Source: Jiella pacifica
GTDB taxonomy: Bacteria > Pseudomonadota > Alphaproteobacteria > Rhizobiales > Rhizobiaceae
Assembly (NCBI RefSeq): GCF_010500815.1
Contig: NZ_JAAAMG010000030.1
Span: forward strand, 1 to 54,452
Direction: 5' to 3'
DNA: 54,452 nt
Position numbers and translations under genes: made by a program. How positions within the stretch are numbered: the stretch's first letter is position 1; the number at the start of each line of letters is the position of its first letter. The notes beneath the pieces were generated by a model, which did no database searches, was not told where the DNA came from, and was given only the letters and a program-made list of their open reading frames with translations. Shown here one piece after another: positions 4,803-16,414 of this stretch.

Positions 4803-6134
4803 ATGCGGATGAACAAAGAACAGAAAGATCCTCGTAGCGCGGACATCGACCGGCCCCCATCTCGGCTCGGACGATTGCTCTTGGCCTTGCGGGAAACCGT
4901 CGGGCTCCGCGGTATGGCCCCCACAGCTGACCCCGTATTTCGAAAACTCTATGCGCAGTCGAAGCCGGAAAGGCTTTCGCGCTCCATGGCCGCGGAATGG
5001 ACGCAGATGGTGGCCGGCATCCAAATCAGCGAGAAGCAGATCCAGCGCGTCGAGACCGGCGATAGACGGACCCACGAGACAGCTCAAATCAGGGGATTAT
5101 TGCGAAGCTATGGGCTGGGCGTCGATGAGGTCGAGGCGGTTATTGAGGATCCCGAGCTCAACAGGATCAGCGGCAATCCCCATCTGATCGCAGATTGGCG
5201 GTTGCGCGGGCTCGCCCTCTATGAATTCGGTCCGCTAATTAACGAGGCTCTCAAAGTCGGCGATCGCTGCTCTACGTGGCTTGAAGTCGAGAAGGCGGGA
5301 AATTGCGGATATTCACCGGACGAGGTGACGCTGCTTGTCTCAGAGGGCGAGATCAATCCGCCGGAGGCGTTCAGGCGGATCGCCGACGAAGCCTTCCGAC
5401 AAAACGACATCAAGAAGAAGGCTGGGATTCGCGGCTGGAGCGACAATCCGACCCTATGTTTAGCATCCGTCGTAGACGACCTTGCCGCCGATGAAGAAGA
5501 GCGACGCAGCATCACCTGCCGATTTGTTCAGTCAAAATATCGGTACAACGTCGTCGCGAAGCAAGAAGGAGGTGCTGGATTTCGAGCCCGAGCTCTGCAG
5601 GATGCGACCTGGCCGCTGAAACCGGTTCCGTTCCTGTCATCCGGCGTAGGAATTTGCATCAACGTCATCTGCGACGACGGAAAGACACTGGTTGTCGGAC
5701 GCCGTGGGAACGACGAGACGTTCCGAAAAGGCGAATACGACATCGCGGTGGTCGAAGGTATCAGACCAACATCAAATGTCGTCGACGGCCGTATCGATAT
5801 CGTCGGTGTCGCCAAACGAGCATTGATAGAAGAGCTGGGTCTCCACAAAGTCGCGCCAAATGGAGATATCGACCAGATCATCGAACAGCTCAGGATATTT
5901 GAGCTAGGCTGCGACTTGGAATACTACCAATGGAACTTCTTGTCCTACGCAAAAGTAAATTTAAATTTCAAACAGATCTATACTGGCTGGCAAAAGGCAA
6001 AAGACCGCAAAGAAAACCAAACAATTACGCAAATAGAGTTTACGAAGGAGGCGGTTCTTGACTTTGTCACGAACCAACACATCTGGTCATCTGGCGTCGC
6101 ATGCGCCGTCCGAACTTTCGATTATTACACGTGA
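4803..6134 (+). CDS. HTH domain - Nudix-like fusion protein
   Basis: A 443-residue protein. Residues about 15-110 resemble an XRE-like helix-turn-helix, with IQISEKQIQRVETGDRRTH as the recognition segment followed by helices. The middle (120-270) is not recognised. Residues about 285-345 look like a Nudix fold: ICINVICDDGKTLVVGRRG then VVEGIRPTS...GVAKRALIEELGL, close to the Gx5Ex7REUXEEXGU signature but with Lys-Arg-Ala in place of the REx segment. The C-terminus (FTKEAVLDFV) fits the last Nudix helix. Nudix-HTH fusions often act as ligand-sensing regulators (NrtR type), although there the HTH is C-terminal. The layout suggests a regulator of the divergent FAD enzyme or a nucleotide-sensing defence protein. 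Catalysis is uncertain because the box is imperfect. ATG at 4809 is an alternative start. Confidence 0.6.
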   Translation: MRMNKEQKDPRSADIDRPPSRLGRLLLALRETVGLRGMAPTADPVFRKLYAQSKPERLSRSMAAEWTQMVAGIQISEKQIQRVETGDRRTHETAQIRGLLRSYGLGVDEVEAVIEDPELNRISGNPHLIADWRLRGLALYEFGPLINEALKVGDRCSTWLEVEKAGNCGYSPDEVTLLVSEGEINPPEAFRRIADEAFRQNDIKKKAGIRGWSDNPTLCLASVVDDLAADEEERRSITCRFVQSKYRYNVVAKQEGGAGFRARALQDATWPLKPVPFLSSGVGICINVICDDGKTLVVGRRGNDETFRKGEYDIAVVEGIRPTSNVVDGRIDIVGVAKRALIEELGLHKVAPNGDIDQIIEQLRIFELGCDLEYYQWNFLSYAKVNLNFKQIYTGWQKAKDRKENQTITQIEFTKEAVLDFVTNQHIWSSGVACAVRTFDYYT

Positions 6135-6218: not shown

Positions 6219-6363
6219 CCTGACACCCGAGGGCAAGAAGGAACTTGTCGGCCTCGAGGTCAGGGTCCGCTAACGTGCCCAAAGTTGACGGGAACTGCTC
6301 GTCGACCCGAAGGCTCGGAGCCTTTCCAGTCGCCCTCATAGGCACCGGGCAGCCGCGTTTACG
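6219..6363 (+). pseudogene. IS256-family transposase fragment
   Basis: In plus frame the DNA reads GLTPEGKKELVGLE, a hallmark of the IS256 mutator-type transposase (family TPEGKKELVG). After a stop and a frame change it reads ELLVDPKARSL, matching the following family segment (RELLVDLKARGL). Only about 50 codons of a ~400-codon gene remain, from its middle. It overlaps the 3' end of the 6336-7070 gene on the other strand by about 28 bp, so that gene's last residues may have been changed by this insertion. Confidence 0.6.
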
Positions 6364-7070
6364 TGAAGTGAGACTTTGTGGTCGCGCCAGTCTCGACAAA
6401 AGCCGACGACCCTCTCCCTGATCTCAGCATCGGGATTGATCACGAAGAAGGTGCGGCAGCTATAAGCATTGCAGCGAACCGCGATGCTACGGCGTCCCAA
6501 GCGATTCATCCAGAAGTCGACCTCGGCGTCGTGGCCGCCCTTGAAGCGACTGTTGTGGTGGTAGACAATCGTTGGACGTCCGTCCGCGAGAGCCAGAACT
6601 TCGGCGACCGGCATACGCTTGGCGAAGTGGGGCTCGAGACGTCGGCCGGGGTCGTCGGAGACCAGTCCGTTGTCGGGATCTGCGAATATGATCTCGGCGT
6701 CCTCCAGCGCCGTCCGCGCTCGCTCGAACCACAACGCCCGTTCCGCGCACCGCAGACGTCTGGGCAGATTCCGCCCCGGAACAGTCTCAGAGGCGAAAAT
6801 TGTCCCATTGTCGAACGCATCCTGCAAAGCGTTGACCACCCTTGGCCCGTCGGCAATTCTGGTTAAGTACTCGAAAACTTTGGGATCGGGTCCACGCCAG
6901 CGATCAGCGTCTCGCAAGTAGCGAACATGGCGCCCATCTTCATTGTGATCTTCGTCCGGGTGAAGGTACCAAGCAACCCCTAATCGACGTCCAACTGCCA
7001 GCCGTCGAACGAGAGACAATTTTACGTAGTCGCCTATGTCGCCAGTGTATCTGTTTTGCAATGAAGACAA
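6336..7070 (-). CDS. Conserved protein of unknown function, last gene of the PurZ-like operon
   Basis: A 244-residue soluble protein. It begins NRYTGDIGDYVKLSLVRRL, followed by LGVAWYLHPDE and DGRHVRYL. This resembles a widespread but uncharacterised family that starts with a GD-GD-(F/Y)-x-K-x-x-L-(L/V)-R segment. Further conserved-looking motifs are EIIFADPDNGL (D-P-D-N-G-L) and TIVYHHNSRFKGGH (paired His). The DPDNGL segment recalls the DPP[YF] loop of nucleotide-modifying enzymes, but no confident fold assignment is possible. Its ATG at 7070 lies two bases after the stop of the dCTP-deaminase-like gene, so it is part of the same four-gene operon. The very C-terminus overlaps an IS256 fragment and may be altered. 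Confidence 0.7.
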   Translation of the reverse strand: MSSLQNRYTGDIGDYVKLSLVRRLAVGRRLGVAWYLHPDEDHNEDGRHVRYLRDADRWRGPDPKVFEYLTRIADGPRVVNALQDAFDNGTIFASETVPGRNLPRRLRCAERALWFERARTALEDAEIIFADPDNGLVSDDPGRRLEPHFAKRMPVAEVLALADGRPTIVYHHNSRFKGGHDAEVDFWMNRLGRRSIAVRCNAYSCRTFFVINPDAEIRERVVGFCRDWRDHKVSLHVNAAARCL

Positions 7071-7072
7071 TC

Positions 7073-8113
7073 TCAGCGCGAAGAGGAAGGCTCTGCCGAT
7101 GGCGCGGCGGAAGCTTTGAACTGCCCTCGCAGAGCGGCGTTCTCCGCACGAAGCGTGTCGATCTGCATCTGCAGGCTTTGGGTAAGTTCATCTAGACGCT
7201 GCACGTCGCTCTCCAGATCGCCGGCTTTTAGCGCAGGGACCATACCCTCGGCCATCCAAAGACCATAGGCATTCTGCATAAAGCTACGGTTCGTATAGAT
7301 TTCGCTCAGCATGATTAGTCCAAAGGTTACTACGAGGGTCAATGCCGCTATAAGACCAAAACGCTGAAGTTCTTTGACGCGATCGAACGCTGCGTCGGCT
7401 TTTTTCTCGACGCGCCGAACGAAGGGGCGGATTGAGCTGCGGATCAGTACAGACCGCTGCTTATAGTCGTCAAAGGCTGCCTTATCGAGCCATTTCTTGC
7501 CATCGGAGATCGCTTTGTAGGTGGGGTAGTCACCGTAGGGCGACGGGCGGTCCTGATCGTAAGTTGTGCGAGTGAACTCGATCCAGATGAACCCATCATC
7601 CTCATGGATGTAGTAGTGCTCTGAGGTCAAGTTGTGCAGCGGGATTAACAGCCGGCCGCGAAACCCAGGATCAACGAGCGGTCCTGTTCCCAGCAGCAAG
7701 CCGCGGTGGACATGCTTTATTTGCAAATTGAAGCGAGCCGCAATGTAGCGGGGCAAACGGAACTGCACGCCACTTTCAACGAAGACAATCTCGTTTGCCG
7801 GTATTTTAAGGTAGCCGTCCTTGTTTCGTCGGAGTTCTTTTATACCTTCCTTGCCGTAGATGTACGCCTTCTTGCCAATGCAATCTTCGTAGGAAGCATG
7901 CTTCAATTTTTTTTTCGTGCCGTAAAAAGGTGTGACCATGGCGGTTCGACGCACGTACTCGACGATGTCGTCCGCAGATAGAAGCGAGGGATGGATCTTG
8001 CGTTCTCGGCCGTCGTGGAATGGGTCCTCCTCAAAGAACCTCTTCGATAACTTATCGGCCTCGTCGTCGGTCCACGAGAGTTCGAAAGGCTCGAAATTGG
8101 ATTGACCAGTCAT
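7073..8113 (-). CDS. Membrane-anchored dCTP-deaminase/dUTPase-fold protein
   Basis: A 346-residue protein starting at ATG 8113, two bases after the PurZ-like stop; longer starts overlap that gene. Residues about 100-180 carry the trimeric dCTP deaminase/dUTPase signature: a hydrophobic strand, then GLLLGTGPLVDPGFRG (138-153) and LLIPLHNL (155-162). In bona fide dCTP deaminases the strand after DPG(W/F)xG contains the catalytic Glu (LEFYN); here the aligned position is Pro (IPLHN). Deaminase activity is therefore doubtful and a nucleotide-binding or sensing role is possible. A single membrane helix spans about 252-270 and a coiled coil about 300-332. The product probably sits on the inner membrane face as an oligomer. 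It is the third gene of the four-gene operon 11081-6336. Confidence 0.7.
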   Translation of the reverse strand: MTGQSNFEPFELSWTDDEADKLSKRFFEEDPFHDGRERKIHPSLLSADDIVEYVRRTAMVTPFYGTKKKLKHASYEDCIGKKAYIYGKEGIKELRRNKDGYLKIPANEIVFVESGVQFRLPRYIAARFNLQIKHVHRGLLLGTGPLVDPGFRGRLLIPLHNLTSEHYYIHEDDGFIWIEFTRTTYDQDRPSPYGDYPTYKAISDGKKWLDKAAFDDYKQRSVLIRSSIRPFVRRVEKKADAAFDRVKELQRFGLIAALTLVVTFGLIMLSEIYTNRSFMQNAYGLWMAEGMVPALKAGDLESDVQRLDELTQSLQMQIDTLRAENAALRGQFKASAAPSAEPSSSR

Positions 8114-8115
8114 GG

Positions 8116-9159
8116 TCAAGCGAACATCCGAGTTCTGTCGACAACCGAATAAGGATCGAAGCCAAGCCAACTTACTGGACGACCTATCCATGCCTCAACG
8201 TCCGTTACGAAACGTCTGGCGGCTCCAGACTGCAAGTTCAGCTCTTCGGCGGGTCCAACGTAATCTAGGTGGTTCAATACGAGTCGATGAGGAGCATTGA
8301 CCATGATTGCCTTACGAGCGAGCTCCACGTCGAACTCGCCGACACGGCGCAACTTCTTCGTGACAGTAGTATATTCCCGAATATCATCTGATCTGCCGGT
8401 GCGCTCGGCGATTCGTTGCCACGTCGTCTCGCGAGAAAGGGGGCCGGACTCACCTGCCACTCGGATTGGGAAGCTTCGAAGCACGAGCACAACATCATCA
8501 ACATGTGCGATGCCGATTCCCGCTTCGGAAAGAGCCGCCGCGGCCGTCGTCGAGCGAGCCGTCGCCTTCGGCCAGATGCCCCCATCAAGCAACGATAGGC
8601 CGAAGCCTTGGGAGCCTTCAATTACGACGCGGTCTCCGCGCCGCAGTATGTCGTCTAAAACTGTAGAGGTGTCCCGGATCATTGGCTCAAGTTGACCCTG
8701 GAATTGAGCATGCACGGCAACGAGGGGAAAGTTTTCAGCGGTGCGGGCTACGCTTGCCATGACAGCGGCTCCGACACCAGATCCAGTCGATCCGATCCGG
8801 CCCGTGAGGTTTGAAGATTGCTCCCACGCTCGATGCTGGTCCGTGATGATGTTCGCGAACGGATGGATATGGATGCGGTCCTCGGGAAAGCTGAGCGCGT
8901 CAATCTCGCTTCTCAGAAGCTCAATGTCGATGTACGAACCCGCTGGAAACACAACGTCCACGTTTAGGTCTACACAGGCCGCCGGCATCTGACGTAGGGC
9001 CCATCTGCGCCCGTGGCGATCGTAGGCTGTATGGCCGGAGTTCGGCCCCCCAACCCGGACTACCGTCGATCGACCGTCGGCGCGCCGGACAATCTCTAGC
9101 GCGACTTTTCCCTTTCCCTCGGATCCAAATTGGCCCCCAACAACTATCGAGACAGGCAT
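8116..9159 (-). CDS. PurZ-like short adenylosuccinate synthetase homologue
   Basis: A 347-residue protein, well short of bacterial PurA (~430) but like archaeal PurA and phage PurZ. P-loop-like GSEGKGK is at 12-18, GGPNSGHT with His43 at 37-44, IGSTGSGVG at 122-130, EGSQGFGLSL from 181, and the aspartate-binding loop TTVTKKLRRVG at 264-274. PurA uses an Asp at position 13 (WGDEGKGK) to activate IMP; here it is Ser13, the change I recall as typical of PurZ, which joins aspartate to dGMP on the way to 2-aminoadenine. The guanine-specificity motif TKLD is NHLD (296-299) and the GPFPTE motif is degraded. The gene overlaps the upstream fusion gene by 16 bp and nearly abuts the next. A housekeeping PurA role is unlikely. 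The true substrate (dGMP or another NMP) is unknown. Confidence 0.75.
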   Translation of the reverse strand: MPVSIVVGGQFGSEGKGKVALEIVRRADGRSTVVRVGGPNSGHTAYDRHGRRWALRQMPAACVDLNVDVVFPAGSYIDIELLRSEIDALSFPEDRIHIHPFANIITDQHRAWEQSSNLTGRIGSTGSGVGAAVMASVARTAENFPLVAVHAQFQGQLEPMIRDTSTVLDDILRRGDRVVIEGSQGFGLSLLDGGIWPKATARSTTAAAALSEAGIGIAHVDDVVLVLRSFPIRVAGESGPLSRETTWQRIAERTGRSDDIREYTTVTKKLRRVGEFDVELARKAIMVNAPHRLVLNHLDYVGPAEELNLQSGAARRFVTDVEAWIGRPVSWLGFDPYSVVDRTRMFA

Positions 9160-11081
9160 GACCCACCTTTCATAACGATAGTAACGAGGTTTCTAGCCTC
9201 GACTGCAACGGCGTCGCGTGTCCTGTAGTTTAGGAATCGGCAGTGCGCAAGCTCACTTAGCGTCCCGATCCCGCTCTCCACGTTGCCGCTAGCAGCAACA
9301 TCGAAGTCTCCGTGGGACCGCAGCGCGTACCGCTCCCGCCGCAATGCCTCGTCCGCGTCCACGAAGACGTGGAGATAGGAGCCGCCTGCGTGTTCCGCGA
9401 AGAACGCATGGTCGTCTGCGAAGCGTAGACCGTCAACGACAACCCGCTCGGCGCCTCCAACGCGGGCGAGGGTGCGCCCGGCAAGCCATCGCTGCCGTCC
9501 CGTCCGGTTGATCTCCGCACCGAGTCGCTGCCTCTCGAACCGATCCAGAGGAAGACCTCTTGCCCTAAGTTCGTCGTCGATCACTTCGCTAAAGCGAGTG
9601 TAGGCAAAGCCCAATGCCTCTAGTTCGCGCGCAAGCGTCGTCTTGCCTGCGGCGATCGGACCGCTGATGCCGATTAGGAGTCGATGGGGCGCACCGGATA
9701 GCATTGGGATGATCAGCGGGGGCTCGTCCGCCGTTCCCAAAGATTCCGACAATCCCGCCCAGTGAAACGAGCCGACAAGCGCAGATGTCGCTGCGTCGAG
9801 TTCGTCGTGCGTCGCCTCCCCGAAATCACCCTGAAGACCAAACTCCTCTAGACCGAGGCGAAGCCATTCCACGCCAGCGCCCTTGCGAGGTATGCGCATG
9901 ATGTCCTGTGCGGCTCCAGGATAGCTCTCGATCACGGGGACTCCTCGACGTCGGAACTCCTCCGCCAGCACCATTCCACGCGCAGTCAGCTTTTGCATAC
10001 TTGGCAGGAGACAGGGATACACGTTCACACCGCGCCGCTTCAGCTCACGCTCGCACTCCCGCATGATGCCGAACCTCTCGCGTCCCGGATCAGCATCGTC
10101 GACGCTTATCCGACCGGATGGAAGGCAAAGCGGTGAGTCGATTGAGATCAGATCGGGTCTGGAAGACATCGTCCGGTCGATCAGGTCGCGATCAGTAAAA
10201 ATTGTGGAGACTTGGCATTTGTCGCCGTCGAGTAGGCACCAGCCCGAACCACGCGCCTCGGAACCGGTCAGGTCGATGCCAACGATCCGTGCATTTGCAG
10301 CCGGACCTTTGCCAAGCAGAGACTTGAAATCGAGCTGCCGCAAATCGTCGGCCTTTCTCGGCTCGAACGTCGGCAGTTCCTCCGACCCACAAGGGCCTGC
10401 CCATTTCTCGAAGCACACGTCGCCAACGAATAGGTCCGGCGCAACGTCCAAGCAGACGAGTACCCGATCGAGAATCGCTCCCATCGCGGCGATATCGGCA
10501 CGATTGTAACGGACTAGGCTCTCAAGAGCCCCGACGTCTCCACGCACGTAGCGGTGCCAAAGAGTGACGGCCGCAAGTCCATCGATCCCGTTAACGTTCG
10601 TCCGCAATTCAATTCCCAATGCCTTCTCGATCGCCTTCTGCCCGCCCTTCAAACCTGCCCTACGGCAGAGATACATAAGGTCCAGATGGTGCTGCGGCAG
10701 GACGACGTCAGGATATTCCGCGCGCAGAAACCGACTATCAAAGCGAATTCCGTTGAACGTGACGATTGCGACCGCGTTGCGCGCATCTTCGACAAGTGCG
10801 CGATGGCAGTCGCCTTTTACGATCGTTGAGGCACGCCCTTTGTAGGACCAGCCGACTACAGTGATCTCGTCGTAGAAGTGACTCAGCCCCGTCGTCTCGA
10901 CGTCGAGGAACAGCACTTGTTCCGGCCGCTCGGCGCAGGCCGCCAAAAGCGCGGTAAGGTTCGAGGGAAAGCTGGCTCGTCTAACCACCGACGGTGCGGA
11001 TCGCGGAGGACGTACCACTGCCCCGGACGGAGCGGGCCCGTCCAGGTTCGCATCGTCGATCGCCAATCCGAAAAACGACAC
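9144..11081 (-). CDS. DEDD exonuclease - DUF429 - P-loop nucleotide kinase fusion
   Basis: A 645-residue three-domain protein; GTG 11081 is chosen because AGAGGG lies six bases upstream (a TTG at 11114 is possible). Residues 55-210 are an RNase-H-like 3'-5' exonuclease domain of YprB type: LFLDVETTGL (60-63 DVET), TFNGIRFD (110-115) and YNRADIAAMG (192-196). Residues 264-440 are DUF429, a second RNase-H-fold predicted nuclease: IVGIDLTGSEARGSGW, LISIDSPL and HDELDAATSAL. Residues 468-645 are a P-loop kinase of the dephospho-CoA/dNMP kinase type: GISGPIAAGKTT (P-loop 474-481), VVVDGLRF and a lid region rich in Arg (RRERYALRSH). It is the first gene of the operon and overlaps the PurZ-like gene by 16 bp. 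Pairing two nuclease folds with a kinase suggests processing of nucleotides derived from DNA or RNA. Confidence 0.75.
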   Translation of the reverse strand: MSFFGLAIDDANLDGPAPSGAVVRPPRSAPSVVRRASFPSNLTALLAACAERPEQVLFLDVETTGLSHFYDEITVVGWSYKGRASTIVKGDCHRALVEDARNAVAIVTFNGIRFDSRFLRAEYPDVVLPQHHLDLMYLCRRAGLKGGQKAIEKALGIELRTNVNGIDGLAAVTLWHRYVRGDVGALESLVRYNRADIAAMGAILDRVLVCLDVAPDLFVGDVCFEKWAGPCGSEELPTFEPRKADDLRQLDFKSLLGKGPAANARIVGIDLTGSEARGSGWCLLDGDKCQVSTIFTDRDLIDRTMSSRPDLISIDSPLCLPSGRISVDDADPGRERFGIMRECERELKRRGVNVYPCLLPSMQKLTARGMVLAEEFRRRGVPVIESYPGAAQDIMRIPRKGAGVEWLRLGLEEFGLQGDFGEATHDELDAATSALVGSFHWAGLSESLGTADEPPLIIPMLSGAPHRLLIGISGPIAAGKTTLARELEALGFAYTRFSEVIDDELRARGLPLDRFERQRLGAEINRTGRQRWLAGRTLARVGGAERVVVDGLRFADDHAFFAEHAGGSYLHVFVDADEALRRERYALRSHGDFDVAASGNVESGIGTLSELAHCRFLNYRTRDAVAVEARNLVTIVMKGGSCLSR

Positions 11082-11200
11082 TTGATTCCCTCTTTCGCAC
11101 GCTCGTACTGTCAAAAGATGATAGCGTCTAGCCGTCGAATTGGCGACCTCAACGCGTCGTTATACATGAAAAGTGTCGATTCCTGAGCGCTGGAGTGCGT

Positions 11201-11467
11201 ATGTCGTCATATAGTATAGAAGTGGTGCAGAACGCCGATCACAACCCATGCCCCCATGACTACGGTCTGCGCCGATCGGCGTGGATCCGTGCGATGACGC
11301 TCTTGAACCATCTTGGATCCGAGAGCGCGCTTGATGTTGCGGACGCCAGAGCGGATCGAGCGTTCGAACGAGGCGACCACGTCATATGCCGGCGATGGCG
11401 CGACCTGATCGTGGCGATCCATGCGTTGGAGGCAGACGAACCCCGACCCGGCGAGTGCATCCACTAG
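11201..11467 (+). CDS. Small hypothetical protein, alphaproteobacterial type
   Basis: An 88-residue protein with two or three predicted helices: SAWIRAMTLLNHLGSE, DVADARADRAFERGD and CRRWRDLIVAIHALEADEPRPGE. The pattern of a helix, then ARADxAxxxGD, then W...AIxxLE is common in short uncharacterised rhizobial proteins, which supports it being real. It is convergent with rlmJ and overlaps its stop by four bases. No function can be assigned. An in-frame ATG six bases upstream is an alternative start. Confidence 0.5.
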   Translation: MSSYSIEVVQNADHNPCPHDYGLRRSAWIRAMTLLNHLGSESALDVADARADRAFERGDHVICRRWRDLIVAIHALEADEPRPGECIH

Positions 11468-12306
11468 GATCGTTCGCCGCCCCATTCGTTGAAGGCGGGA
11501 CGGACGCTCCACGTGGCGTCGCCATGCCCGAGGATCGTCGAAAGTTCCTCGCAGAGCTCCCGCAACCTGCGATCGAGGGTCCAGGGAGGGTTGCAGATCA
11601 CGAGCCCGCTTCCCGCCAACTCCAGTCCGTTTCGCGCGAAGGGGCAGAACTCGGCTCGGAGCACATCAGCGAAGCCCGCCTCGATTGCCGCGGCCTCAAT
11701 CTCCTTTCCGTTCTCCGATCCTTTAATCGGATACCAGACCACGTAGATGCCGGTCGCCCAGCGACGACGCCCCTTCGCGAGCGCTCTCCCGATGGCCCCC
11801 GTCTCGTCGGTCTTTTCGAATGGGGGATCCACGAAGACCAGTCCTCGCCTCTCGGCAGGCGGTAGGAGTGCCCCGATCGCCTCATAGCCGTTGCGCAGAT
11901 GGACCGAGACACGCGGATCGGATCGGTATCGCCGGCGCAACGCTTCCCCGTCCTCGGGATGAAGCTCGCAGAGGATCAACCGGTCGACGTCGCGCAGCGC
12001 GAGGCGTGTGATCTCAGGAGAACCCGGGTACAGGTTCTCTGCATCAGCTCTAGTCGCCGCCAGGGAAGAGGCATAGCCGGGCGCCGACCGAAGCCCCCCG
12101 TTCTCGAGGCGCTCCACTCCTTCCGCCCTCTCGTTGGTCCGAGCCGCCTCGCGCGATGCCAAATCATAGACGCCGAGGCCGGCATGCGTGTCGAGGACCA
12201 TGAACGGACGAGGTTTGAGGCGCAGCATGTCAAGGACGATCGATAGCGCGGCATGTTTGAAAATCTCGGTATGGTTACCGGCATGAAATGCGTGTCGATA
12301 GTTCAT
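11464..12306 (-). CDS. rlmJ: 23S rRNA (adenine2030-N6)-methyltransferase RlmJ
   Basis: A 280-residue protein of the RlmJ family, which methylates N6 of A2030 in 23S rRNA using S-adenosylmethionine. The start MNYRHAFHAGNHTEIFKHA is the family signature, followed by FMVLDTHAGLGVYDL (SAM-binding motif I), LCELHPED, and FVDPPFEK, the DPP[YF] catalytic loop of N6-adenine methyltransferases. The length matches E. coli RlmJ. It lies between the PurZ-like operon and the ABC-3C system, on the strand of the former but 383 bp upstream of it, so probably transcribed alone. Its presence in an accessory region could mean an extra copy or a core gene between two insertions. Confidence 0.88.
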   Translation of the reverse strand: MNYRHAFHAGNHTEIFKHAALSIVLDMLRLKPRPFMVLDTHAGLGVYDLASREAARTNERAEGVERLENGGLRSAPGYASSLAATRADAENLYPGSPEITRLALRDVDRLILCELHPEDGEALRRRYRSDPRVSVHLRNGYEAIGALLPPAERRGLVFVDPPFEKTDETGAIGRALAKGRRRWATGIYVVWYPIKGSENGKEIEAAAIEAGFADVLRAEFCPFARNGLELAGSGLVICNPPWTLDRRLRELCEELSTILGHGDATWSVRPAFNEWGGERS

Positions 12307-12714: not shown

Positions 12715-13890
12715 TTGGTGGCAATCAACAACACGGCGGCGCCTCAGGCTGCTGGCTACATCCTTCAACTCGAGAGAGCGTTCCATCATCTCGCTCATGC
12801 CGGTGCTGGTGCCGTCGTGGCCGTCGAACATCTGGATGATGTCGCCGTCCAGAAGGACGGGAAGACCTTTCTGCAGGAGCAGGACAAGAGCACGGCCGCC
12901 CCTAGTGCCAGACTGCTTGCTGACCGCAGTAAGGCGATCTGGCGAACACTGGAGATTTGGCTGCTACAGCGCGAGGCGCGGGACGCGGTTCCATGCGTGC
13001 GGTATTTGTTTTTTGTGAACAGGCCTGTCAACACACCAATCGCGACACTGGTGAAGAAGCGGATGCGGCAGGAGGCGACGTCGGCGGACGTTCTGTCCGC
13101 TCTGCGCGAGCAGGGGTTGTCAGGCAAGGACAAGAAAACCGGCCAGGCCCAGGTTCTCATCAACCGGGTCTTACAACGATCCGACGAGGACCTGATCGCT
13201 CTCATTGACCGTATTGAGATCGTTGAGGCCGGCGACCCGGCTGCGGACCGGGCGGCCATGGCCAATGCGCTAGGCCTCAGCCGCCGCGTCAATGCGGAAG
13301 ACATCCTCGATAGTCTCTTCGGGTGGCTGACGCGGCTAGTGCGGGAGGAATGGAGCGCCAGCCGGCCCGGCCTCATCACCCGTGACGCCGTTCTGCTGCA
13401 GAAGGACGCGCTCCAAGACCGTCAGGCGCGTGGCCGTTTCCTACCCAGGGCGGCCTCGGACATCATGGTGTCCGAAGCGGATAGAGCGGGCGCCCTATCG
13501 CGAACTTTTGTTGAACACCTTGGTCGAATCGAAGCGGAGAACGACGACATCATTGACGCTGTCGACCACTTCCTGAAATTCAATATCGAGAAGCACCGGC
13601 TGGTCGTTGAGGGCGAAGTCGCGGACCGGGAATGGCAAGACCGCGGCGAACGCCTGCGAGGTCGTTGGCGGACCTTAATGCGGCGGCGCGCCAGAGAGAT
13701 GAAATTTTTGCCCGCAACGGAAGTCGGGCGGACCATCCTAGCCGACGCGACCTACGAGTATCAAGAACCGCTTGACGGGCAGCCATGTGGCGAAACCTAT
13801 ATGACCTCTGGCCACTACCACCGTCTTGCGGACGAGAACGAGGTCTGGTGGGACCCCACCTACTCTCCGGATCCCCCCTGTGAAGATTGA
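12715..13890 (+). CDS. ABC-3C system effector, PD-(D/E)xK-like nuclease
   Basis: A 391-residue protein, first gene of an ABC-three-component operon. The N-terminus, AAPQAAGYILQLERAFHHLA then VAVEHLDDVAV (Glu38, Asp41/42) and FLQEQDKST (Gln56-x-Lys58), has the order expected for the restriction-endonuclease-like domain seen in DUF4297/Cap4-like effectors: Q/ExE, D, then (E/Q)xK. The remaining 300 residues are mostly helical and probably contact the middle component or ATPase. It would cut DNA when released by the ATPase sensor. The start is TTG 12715 or GTG 12718, with AAGGA just upstream. Its stop overlaps the next gene's GTG by 11 bp. The nuclease call is inferred from spacing of residues, not from a search. 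Confidence 0.65.
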   Translation: MVAINNTAAPQAAGYILQLERAFHHLAHAGAGAVVAVEHLDDVAVQKDGKTFLQEQDKSTAAPSARLLADRSKAIWRTLEIWLLQREARDAVPCVRYLFFVNRPVNTPIATLVKKRMRQEATSADVLSALREQGLSGKDKKTGQAQVLINRVLQRSDEDLIALIDRIEIVEAGDPAADRAAMANALGLSRRVNAEDILDSLFGWLTRLVREEWSASRPGLITRDAVLLQKDALQDRQARGRFLPRAASDIMVSEADRAGALSRTFVEHLGRIEAENDDIIDAVDHFLKFNIEKHRLVVEGEVADREWQDRGERLRGRWRTLMRRRAREMKFLPATEVGRTILADATYEYQEPLDGQPCGETYMTSGHYHRLADENEVWWDPTYSPDPPCED

Positions 13891-14377: not shown

Positions 14378-16414
14378 ATGAAACTCTTCATCCGTGAAAT
14401 CATCATTTGGGCGGAGGATGTCAGCTTCCAGCCGCGGACTCTGCCCTTCGATCCCGAAGCCGTATCGGTGGTGACCGGGTGGAGCGGCACCGGCAAATCG
14501 TCGATCGTCAACATCATCAACTATGTGCTGGGATCTAGCACCTGCTCAATCGCAGTCGGTACCATTCGAGATGCCGTGTCCTGGTTCGGCCTGACTATCG
14601 AAACGGACAACGGGCTGATGCGGATCGCCCGCCCGAAGCCCGCAGCCCGTCACGTCTCCGAAGAAATATGGATCCAAGATATAGACGACGTCGGTCAGAT
14701 GCTGCCGGCGCGCCCGCTCGCGAACTCGAACGTCGCAAGGCTGAAGGTCCTGTTCGATCTCCGATCAGGGCTGTCGAACCTTGCTCTCGATCCTGAGAAG
14801 GACAAGGGCTTCGGCGGTCGAGCGAGCTTCCGCGATCTCGCCGCGTTCAATTTGCTACCACAGCATATTGTCGCCAACCCACATACCTTGTTCTTCAAGA
14901 CGGACTCTTCACACCATCGCGAGACCCTGCGTCACGTCCTTCCGCTCGCGATGGGCGTGGTAACCAACGAGGACCTAGTCCGGGCCCATCGCCTTAAGCT
15001 GTTGCGCGACGAGCAGCGCAAGCTGGAGACCGAACTTCGCACCCGCCGCAACTCCCTCGATAACTGGAGCGCCAACGCCCGCGGCTCCTTCTTTCGCGCT
15101 CAGGAACTCAGCCTACTGCCGCCCGGCGACCCGCCCGGCGATCTTCTGGGATTGCTAAAGGTACTCAGAGATGTCGTGGCCGCCGGCGGTCAGTCCGTGG
15201 CGGCGCCGGGTCGAATATCGGTCGCGGTCAACCGGCTCGATGAGATCCGCCGGCGGGAGGAGGCGCTCGATAAGAAAATCAACGGGGAGCGACGGCGTCT
15301 TCGCAAGTTGCGTAGCCTCTCTCGGTCTGTCGTCGATTACGCAGACGTACTCGCCGAACAGTCAGCCAGCGTGAAGGGCGTGGGCTGGTTCAAGGCTCAC
15401 ATCGCCGCCGAGTCTTGCGTGCTGTGCGGCTCTGATACCGAGGCGGCAAAGTATGCGCTAGAAGAACTGAACGAACCGATCGCCGAACTAGAAAACCTAT
15501 CCACCGGAGCGATCACGGCGCGCCCGATGGTAGATCGAGACCTAATCGCGGTCCAGACCTCCCTTCTGCAGGCGGAAAAGGACCTATTGACGCTGCAGCG
15601 AACCCGCCGGGAGTTCGAGGTCGCGGTCGATAAGGAGCGCGGTCAATCCCAAAGCCTCGAAAATATCTACCGGTTCATCGGATCGACCGAGCAGGCATTG
15701 CGAATGCTGGGCGAGATTCAAGGCGACGATGGCCTAGAAGCCCGCCTCGATAAGCTTCGAGGTGAAATTCGGGAGATCGAGCATCAGGGCAATGAGGGCG
15801 AGCGCCGCCGACGGACCCAGGAGGTTCAAGCGAGAATGTCGCGCTACATCGTGCGCTTCATTCAGCATCTTGGGATTGCGGGCGCGGACGGTCGTCCTGT
15901 ACTCGATGAACGCGAACTAAACTTGCGCTTCGATCAGGAAGGCACGGAAGGCTCAGACTATCTCTGGGAGATAGGCAGTGGCGAGAACTGGATGGCTTAC
16001 CACCTAGCGGCGCTGCTCGCATTGCACGGAGTATTCCTCTCCCGGGGCCAAAACAATCCGGTACCAACCTTCCTCGTCATCGACCAGCCCAGCCAAGTCT
16101 ACTTCCCGAGCGACACCTTTGAGCAGATCGTTACGGGAGAAGACGTCCCCGGCGCTGCTGAGGGATCGCCCGAGGCAGTCCGGCGTCGGAAACGTCGCCT
16201 CAGCGATCTTGAGAGCACCCGGAAGATCTTCGCCAGTCTGGTCCGGGCGCACAAATCATTTGAGTCCAGTCTGCAGATCATCGTGCTCGACCACGCCGAT
16301 CGGCATGCTTGGGGCGAGATCGAGGGGATCAAGGAAGTCGAGAACTGGCGCGGTGCTGCGGACTTTCTGATCCCCGCTCAGTGGATATCTGACGACGGCG
16401 ATCTCGAGCAGTAG
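14378..16414 (+). CDS. DUF3732 SMC/Rad50-like ATPase of ABC-3C system
   Basis: A 678-residue ATPase. Walker A is GWSGTGKS (34-41) near the N-terminus. Residues about 200-540 contain long coiled-coil stretches interrupted by [12 protein letters not shown] (around 347), a Cys-x-x-Cys element like a Rad50 zinc hook. [13 protein letters not shown] (near 565) is the Walker B and diagnostic DUF3732 segment, and [11 protein letters not shown] (near 634) carries the H-switch. Such ATPases are thought to sense invading nucleic acid or nucleoprotein and license the effector. It is the last gene of the operon, three bases after the middle component. The length is normal and all motifs look intact, so the system should be functional. 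Confidence 0.85.

Follow-up and report, generated by a model that had tools for sequence, protein, structure and literature searches.

A PurZ-type synthetase operon of Jiella pacifica that looks like an unrecognised antiviral defence system

The operon and its conserved core

The stretch of DNA analysed here (the window) covers 54,452 nucleotides of Jiella pacifica, contig NZ_JAAAMG010000030.1. At positions 6336-11081 it carries an operon of four intact open reading frames (ORFs), all on the minus strand, which are called g1 to g4 and encode an exonuclease-DUF429-kinase fusion, a PurZ-type synthetase, a membrane-anchored protein of DCD/dUTPase fold and a conserved protein with no family match (Table 1). 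The initial annotation had described a coupled four-gene operon. The four ORFs, their overlap and the two short gaps were confirmed, but comparison with other genomes shows that the core of the operon consists of three genes, g1, g2 and g3, and that g4 is an accessory gene. The likely start of g4 is the second in-frame TTG, which better fits the MQ(N/D)RY start of its relatives.

Table 1. Features of the operon and its neighbourhood in the window (aa, amino acids; NMP, nucleoside monophosphate; HTH, helix-turn-helix)
Feature	Positions	Strand	Remarks
g1, exonuclease-DUF429-kinase fusion	9144-11081	-	645 aa; GTG start, in-frame upstream TTG at 11114 also possible
g1, DEDD 3'-5' exonuclease domain (RNase_H_2, PF13482)	10464-10913	-	aa 57-206; E=7e-27
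g1, DUF429 RNase H-fold domain	9702-10292	-	aa 264-460; 20.3 bits, below Pfam cut-off 23
g1, P-loop NMP-kinase-like domain (AAA_18)	9147-9683	-	aa 467-645; E=7e-9
g2, PurZ-type (amino)adenylosuccinate synthetase	8116-9159	-	347 aa; 16-bp overlap with g1
g3, membrane-anchored DCD/dUTPase-fold protein	7073-8113	-	346 aa; 2-base gap after g2
g3, DCD-fold head	7544-7981	-	aa 45-190; catalytically degenerate
g3, transmembrane segment	7304-7360	-	aa 252-270; hydropathy scan; followed by a weak coiled-coil-type match
g4, conserved protein, no family match	6336-7070	-	2-base gap after g3; likely start 7061
RlmJ-type methyltransferase	11464-12306	-	PF04378, E=9e-56; recurrent neighbour
Lamassu LmuA-like gene, separate system	12715-13890	+	PADLOC LmuA, E=1e-38
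Lamassu LmuB-like gene, separate system	14378-16414	+	PADLOC LmuB, E=5e-106
HTH gene, convergent to operon	4803-6134	+	443 aa; weak HTH match; degenerate NUDIX box by eye

A genome collection (84,980 species according to the text of the search tool) was scanned with an alignment of eight PurZ sequences, and the best 80 of 281 relatives were kept. Among these 80 PurZ loci, g3 homologues were found in 79, g1 homologues in 72 and g4 homologues in 24. The order g1-g2-g3 on one strand is kept in 67/80 loci, or in 66/79 if L098 and L099, which have identical PurZ and carry labels of different phyla, are counted once. Both gaps are no longer than 100 bases in 54/80 loci; in the remaining ordered loci the genes are not always adjacent. 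In three further loci outside the 67 (L047, L052 and L081) g1 is nearby but has moved. Order and strand being kept in so many loci, most of them with short gaps, the three-gene arrangement is beyond chance. Going by their record titles and their labels in the tree, the 67 ordered loci belong to 11 phyla, many of them as metagenome bins: Pseudomonadota, Cyanobacteriota, Bacillota, Bacteroidota, Spirochaetota, Chloroflexota, Verrucomicrobiota, Thermodesulfobacteriota, Fibrobacterota, Fidelibacterota and Latescibacterota. All four genes are present in G035, a genome of the same family as the source organism. Homologues regularly standing apart, or a layout unique to this strain, would have refuted the initial annotation; for g1, g2 and g3 neither was seen, the three families being kept together.

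The same cannot be said of g4, which had been counted as a regular member. In its 24 loci it lies downstream on the same strand (10), downstream on the opposite strand (11) or upstream (3). When g4 was searched alone, relatives were found in 8/347 genomes of the order, own genome included; among the other seven, PurZ was seen in the stretch only for G276, and the six stretches without it were 12 to 18 kb (L105-L107) or short (L022-L024). No match of g4 was found in Pfam, NCBIfam or PADLOC, and the PDB gave no credible relative, the one match, to a designed helix bundle, being due to chance. A guess by eye that g4 is a relative of RlmJ was ruled out (hhalign probability 6%).

Catalytic and degenerate domains of the core proteins

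The g2 product matches adenylosuccinate synthetase, and its best solved relative is 7vf6. PurZ is the best-scoring NCBIfam model (E=7e-74), but the score of 248.7 bits is under the curated cut-off of 300; the enzyme is for this reason called PurZ-type and not PurZ. Residues were counted in 79 aligned rows of PurZ, 78 of g3 and 69 of g1, short ORFs being dropped. In 79/79 PurZ rows, Ser13 replaces the catalytic Asp of PurA, so that the position is of PurZ type and not of PurA type. According to PMC12884076, 99% of the PurA group have Asp at this position, whereas all 147 phage PurZ have Ser; the PurZ group described there consists of phage and four archaeal sequences only. Use of deoxyguanosine monophosphate (dGMP) has been tied to S23, to the T273-T276 loop and to the distance of the Arg that meets the 2'-OH in PurA (PMC8342488). 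The window g2 carries the matching Ser, TTVT and Lys. N40, T125, Q184 and V234 are as in the eight phage rows, and in the aspartate loop T264 is found in 76/79 and T267 in 77/79 core rows; Ser13 and all of these sites have been discussed for phage PurZ (PMC8342488). Judged by these residues, a preference of the window enzyme for deoxy-GMP is likely; for all rows it is not proven.

A natural-product gene cluster was also considered for the operon and rejected. Such a reading fits a homologue on a plasmid of Rhizobium leguminosarum (L010:8375-15938), in which an Asp-type synthetase stands beside PurB, FolE, QueE, QueC, IMP dehydrogenase and nitrile hydratase alpha; this cluster looks like a 7-deazapurine pathway. 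PurB was likewise rejected as an operon member, being found only in L055 (4.8 kb off) and L016 (5.5 kb off), with a weak match in L070.

In the exonuclease domain of g1, 62/69 aligned rows have both the DxE pair and D196. The seven other rows (L076, L085, L093, L096, L097, L101 and L103) have a different N-terminus. In L101, the one of the seven that was scanned, it consists of HHH_8 and PHP, which we take to be the arrangement of a PolX-type 3'-5' exonuclease; the N-termini of L085 and L093 resemble it by eye. Two unrelated exonuclease types at one position suggest that the exonuclease function has been kept across a module exchange, and that release of 5'-deoxynucleoside monophosphates (5'-dNMPs) is the function needed.

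The DUF429 domain keeps its acidic residues D270, D315, D426, E427 and D429 in 69/69 rows, and that of relative L101 scores 23.3 bits at the Pfam cut-off of 23. No solved relatives of the domain were found. DUF429 proteins have been described as RNase H-fold proteins, likely active nucleases, which are also fused with NUDIX and RelA/SpoT domains (PMC3985635). Domains of g1 are found apart as well: haloarchaea have RNase_H_2 proteins, and a plasmid of Dyadobacter carries a DUF429 by itself (L110:4444-6606). The latter, 54% identical to the DUF429 of g1, comes immediately after a diadenylate cyclase that probably has sensor domains, and enzymes of nucleotide signalling may repeatedly have DUF429 as a partner.

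The kinase residues G479, K480 and T481 are present in 69/69 g1 rows. The profile of the domain is of the NMP-kinase class, its closest matches being AdkA-like, dephospho-CoA, adenylate and UMP-CMP kinases. In L056 and L066 the kinase is a separate gene. PurZ proteins of a separate clade (L011, L013-L016) carry a P-loop domain as an N-terminal fusion; the three fusions scanned (L013, L014 and L016) have Pfam matches to it, and direct similarity to the g1 kinase is weak, 22 to 39 bits, in L011, L014 and L015. A gene of a deoxynucleoside kinase (dNK) cluster lies near PurZ in 20/79 loci, 18 times directly after g3 (two members scanned, PF01712). These ties between kinase and PurZ indicate deoxynucleotide chemistry, and the two are predicted to act together.

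The g3 product scores 23.9 bits against Pfam DCD (cut-off 27) and 31 bits against the dCTP_deam model (cut-off 92.8). A simple hydropathy scan found a C-terminal hydrophobic segment in 77/78 g3 rows, followed on average by 76 residues; in the window, the coiled-coil-type match after the segment is to TolA_bind_tri/ZapB, weak and below cut-off. Lys and Arg are richer on the N side of the segment in 70/77 rows, and by this bias the DCD head is probably cytoplasmic. R127, N129, G138, D148, P149, P158 and N161 are invariant in 78/78 rows. Pro158, in the beta-strand after DPG, stands at what we take to be the position of the catalytic Glu of deaminases, which sets g3 apart from Dcd. RSS and a C-terminal GFGSTG, the motifs of dUTPase and DutZ, are not seen in the window g3, which has RFNL at the RSS site. 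Loss of these motifs together with Pro at the deaminase site suggests that the head binds a nucleotide rather than acting as a catalyst. Two genes of g3/DCD type were seen near PurZ in L025, L052, L054, L055 and L095.

Defences based on dCTP deaminase or dGTPase starve phage replication, and the operon might act in a similar manner: PurZ would drain dGMP, g3 would be a membrane-bound hydrolase of deoxynucleoside triphosphates (dNTPs), and dGTP or dGMP would be depleted. The operon shares the DCD fold with these defences, the g1 kinase region of L101 matches the PADLOC dCTPase model (46.5 bits), and each of the 98 phage genomes with PurZ0 in PMC12884076 has a Dut-like dATP/dGTP hydrolase. However, the invariant Pro at the presumed Glu site and the low dCTP_deam score separate g3 from them, and the window protein lacks both the RSS and the C-terminal glycine-rich motifs found in phage Dut proteins linked to PurZ. 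Phosphorylation of nucleotides by the kinase would also work against depletion. Depletion is considered an improbable explanation.

Genomic surroundings and viral relatives

The neighbour clusters of 79 loci include HsdM-like genes (11 loci), HsdS-like genes (6) and two clusters of HsdR-like genes (5 each), with one member scanned and confirmed per restriction cluster. For an estimate of enrichment, 35 of the 80 loci were picked by hand, named genomes being preferred. Their genomes contain 44 N6_Mtase genes in 182.3 Mb, and seven of these lie within the 0.71 Mb around PurZ, against 0.17 expected (Poisson 8e-10; L027, L028, L034, L035, L046, L066 and L092). An eighth gene (L025), 45 bases outside the stretch, was left out of the count. 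The PurZ set is enriched beside type I restriction genes. The defence locus in the outline of the initial annotation fits this, the evidence for an antiphage role being one of location.

The set is also rare. At E<=1e-40, g1 was found in 1/385 genomes of the class, its own only; PurZ was found in 2/398 genomes of the phylum at E<=1e-60, its own and one other, and PurZ of any kind in 6/121 relatives, own included, at E<=1e-20. The location of the operon is chromosomal and sometimes on a plasmid. Such a distribution bears on the idea of a salvage or clean-up pathway, in which exonuclease, kinase, dNK and PurZ would reuse fragments of DNA or clear away unusual purines, and the island location would be incidental. 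All parts act on nucleotides or deoxynucleotides, and both dNK and kinases of NMP type serve in salvage; yet the patchy occurrence and the enrichment at restriction loci argue against this idea. So do rows of different phyla that are sisters in the PurZ tree, such as a Fibrobacterota bin and a Lachnospiraceae bin, with the caveat that the labels of bins can be wrong. Salvage is assigned a low probability.

Near the operon in the window, the genes previously assigned to an ABC-3C system match LmuA and LmuB of Lamassu. The gene for the RlmJ-type rRNA methyltransferase, inside the island, is the second copy in the genome, the other being on contig C1, and an RlmJ-like cluster occurs near PurZ in 11/79 loci (one member scanned). 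The convergent HTH gene was ruled out as a partner of the operon, as it has no match in 87 related loci.

Genes of the HD family are found beside PurZ in L009, L011, L014, L015, L068 and L070. Three of them were scanned and match YfbR-like just below cut-off, a model that phage DatZ matches at 54 bits; the DatZ of phage phiVC8, used as a query, matched none of the ORFs at the 87 loci, HD genes included. A query for the Z polymerase was a 60-aa fragment and decides nothing. The HD genes would suit a pathway for a poisoned nucleotide, in which dZTP (or dSTP) is formed by PurZ together with the kinase and the PurB of the host, the product is built into replicating phage DNA, the exonuclease and DUF429 attack the marked DNA, and g3 only anchors or regulates. 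The chemistry of phage PurZ leads to dZTP (PMC8342488, PMC12884076), and nucleases and kinase stand in one operon. Against this, phiVC8 DatZ had no match in the 87 loci, and restriction is reportedly impeded by 2-aminoadenine in DNA, to the benefit of phages (PMC12884076). It would also leave the membrane-anchored DCD protein, the most constant partner of PurZ, without explanation. A poisoned nucleotide is considered unlikely.

The best 80 of 217 viral relatives of PurZ were examined for comparison, 15 of them in stretches under 8 kb. No match to the g1 exonuclease or DUF429, and none to a g3 with a transmembrane (TM) segment, was found in these 80 viral loci. A kinase-PurZ fusion is present in one (L191). 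Dut-like genes of 141-154 aa lie near viral PurZ in 3/80 loci by single-sequence search and in 7/80 by profile, and none has a segment above the TM threshold. At L133:6700-7134, L185:7050-7484 and L131:7039-7473, viral PurZ is directly followed by a Dut-like gene of 144 aa with the RSS and GFGSTG motifs and with IHN or VHN resembling the LHN of g3.

A maximum-likelihood tree was built from 94 PurZ rows, without L099 and the broken L100. One group holds the core rows and L009 (97/86), and a second holds the kinase-fusion rows (100/100); the separation of the eight phage rows from the bacterial ones has moderate support (91/73). As no PurA outgroup was included and the root is arbitrary, separation is claimed and not direction of descent. 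The fusion rows of L011, L013, L014 and L015 represent a second bacterial PurZ arrangement, a kinase-PurZ fusion followed by a DUF7002 gene, with an HD gene in three of the four loci and a gene of about 480 aa without known family in three; the locus in L011 adjoins AAA ATPase and UvrD genes. These loci are like the operon in the Ser13 PurZ, the P-loop kinase of the same kind, the bacterial host and the nearby HD genes, and unlike it in having DUF7002 in place of the DCD-TM protein as partner and in giving no exonuclease match.

A mobile element that modifies or protects its own DNA with 2-aminoadenine is a further candidate. PurZ is related to the PurZ of Z-genome phages, it lies on plasmids in L009 and L011, and tyrosine-integrase-type genes occur near 9/79 loci (8 of 10 genes scanned, all 8 matching), figures that report occurrence only and claim no enrichment. 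The lack of a match to phage-type DatZ in the 87 loci, and of matches to the g1 exonuclease-DUF429 or a TM-bearing g3 in the 80 viral loci, argues against it, and such a role is very improbable.

Known systems and a proposed nucleotide signal

Several named systems share parts of this plan. The phage Z-genome pathway (PurZ/PurZ0, DatZ, MazZ, DutZ, DmtZ and DpoZ; phages phiVC8, S-2L and Ghobes) has the same Ser at the Asp13 of PurA, a TTVT-type aspartate loop and, in the few viral loci noted above, a Dut/DCD-fold gene beside PurZ. The operon differs in adding the exonuclease-DUF429-kinase protein and a TM anchor, and the phage rows are split off in the tree. CBASS and Pycsar systems with TM effectors combine a nucleotide-making enzyme with a small membrane effector that has a nucleotide-binding head. 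The operon would follow the same plan, but the head of g3 is of DCD fold, and no CD-NTase or pyrimidine cyclase was matched by Pfam, NCBIfam or PADLOC in the eight window proteins scanned.

The Kongming system, with its genes KomA, KomB and KomC, is reportedly built of deaminase (KomA), HAM1-like and SIR2-like folds, none of which had a Pfam match in the same eight proteins; the operon shares no genes with it. In Kongming, dITP made from phage-derived dAMP binds KomB (PMC12948488). The likeness lies in a base-modified deoxynucleotide that is made from DNA-derived dNMP through kinases and read by a sensor (PMC12948488); unlike Kongming, the operon would use amination or succinylation and not deamination, a membrane protein and not NAD depletion, and a kinase of its own. 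In PADLOC 2023, g2, g3 and g4 had no match at E<=0.1 and g1 had only two weak partial matches. The initial annotation knew of no named defence or modification system with this gene set, and the genes fit the definition of none of the named systems compared here. No account of the set was found in the literature searched, which did not include preprints and most subscription papers, and a description elsewhere is possible.

The operon would work like a nucleotide-signal defence, by analogy with these systems, and it looks like an unrecognised antiviral defence. The reading we prefer, tentatively and at somewhat less than even confidence, is a defence-type operon in which products of DNA breakdown would become a signal in the form of a base-modified deoxynucleotide. 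The 3'-5' exonuclease and the DUF429 nuclease of g1 would digest invading or damaged DNA to 5'-dNMPs, and PurZ would join dGMP and aspartate to give N6-succino-2-amino-dAMP (dSMP), which host PurB could convert to the 2-aminoadenine nucleotide dZMP. The NMP kinase of g1 would form the diphosphate, and host nucleoside diphosphate kinase (NDK) the triphosphate. The cytoplasmic DCD head of g3, without the catalytic residues of its relatives, would then bind the product, and the TM helix would relay the signal to the membrane, causing growth stop or death of the infected cell. A nuclease-synthetase-kinase-sensor model of this kind, first proposed in the initial annotation, is partly supported: its outline fits the gene set found, but the mechanism is not established. 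That annotation was made without the accessory genes (dNK kinase, RlmJ paralog and HD hydrolase) and the exchange of exonuclease modules; its outline stands, while the membership of g4 does not.

Several observations weigh against the preferred reading. Position 269 is Lys in 42/79 core rows but Arg, the PurA-type residue, in 23/79, and position 41 is Ala in the eight phage rows and Ser in 76/79 core rows; by these two positions, use of dGMP is not certain across all core rows. With D148 invariant, the DCD head could, though degenerate, still have hydrolase activity on a nucleotide. In eight of the 80 loci (L045, L065, L068, L069, L070, L078, L088 and L102) g1 was not found; in L045 PurZ is near the contig end and g3 is missing too, and in one of the eight PurZ lies 1.4 kb from the contig start. 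Finally, the best 80 of 281 PurZ relatives are a sample tilted to close kin.

A more specific form of this reading is possible but rather doubtful: starting from digested DNA, the PurZ-type enzyme would produce an immune second messenger, a succino- or 2-amino-deoxyadenosine nucleotide, with an enzymatically dead, membrane-anchored DCD protein as its receptor. If this is true, both an immune nucleotide of new chemistry and a receptor fold not yet counted there would join bacterial immunity. Phage Z-genomes would share an enzyme family with a bacterial defence pathway, or would have recruited PurZ from it. An enzyme type known from 2-aminoadenine DNA would be scattered over bacterial chromosomes, and the origin of Z-genomes would become a testable question.

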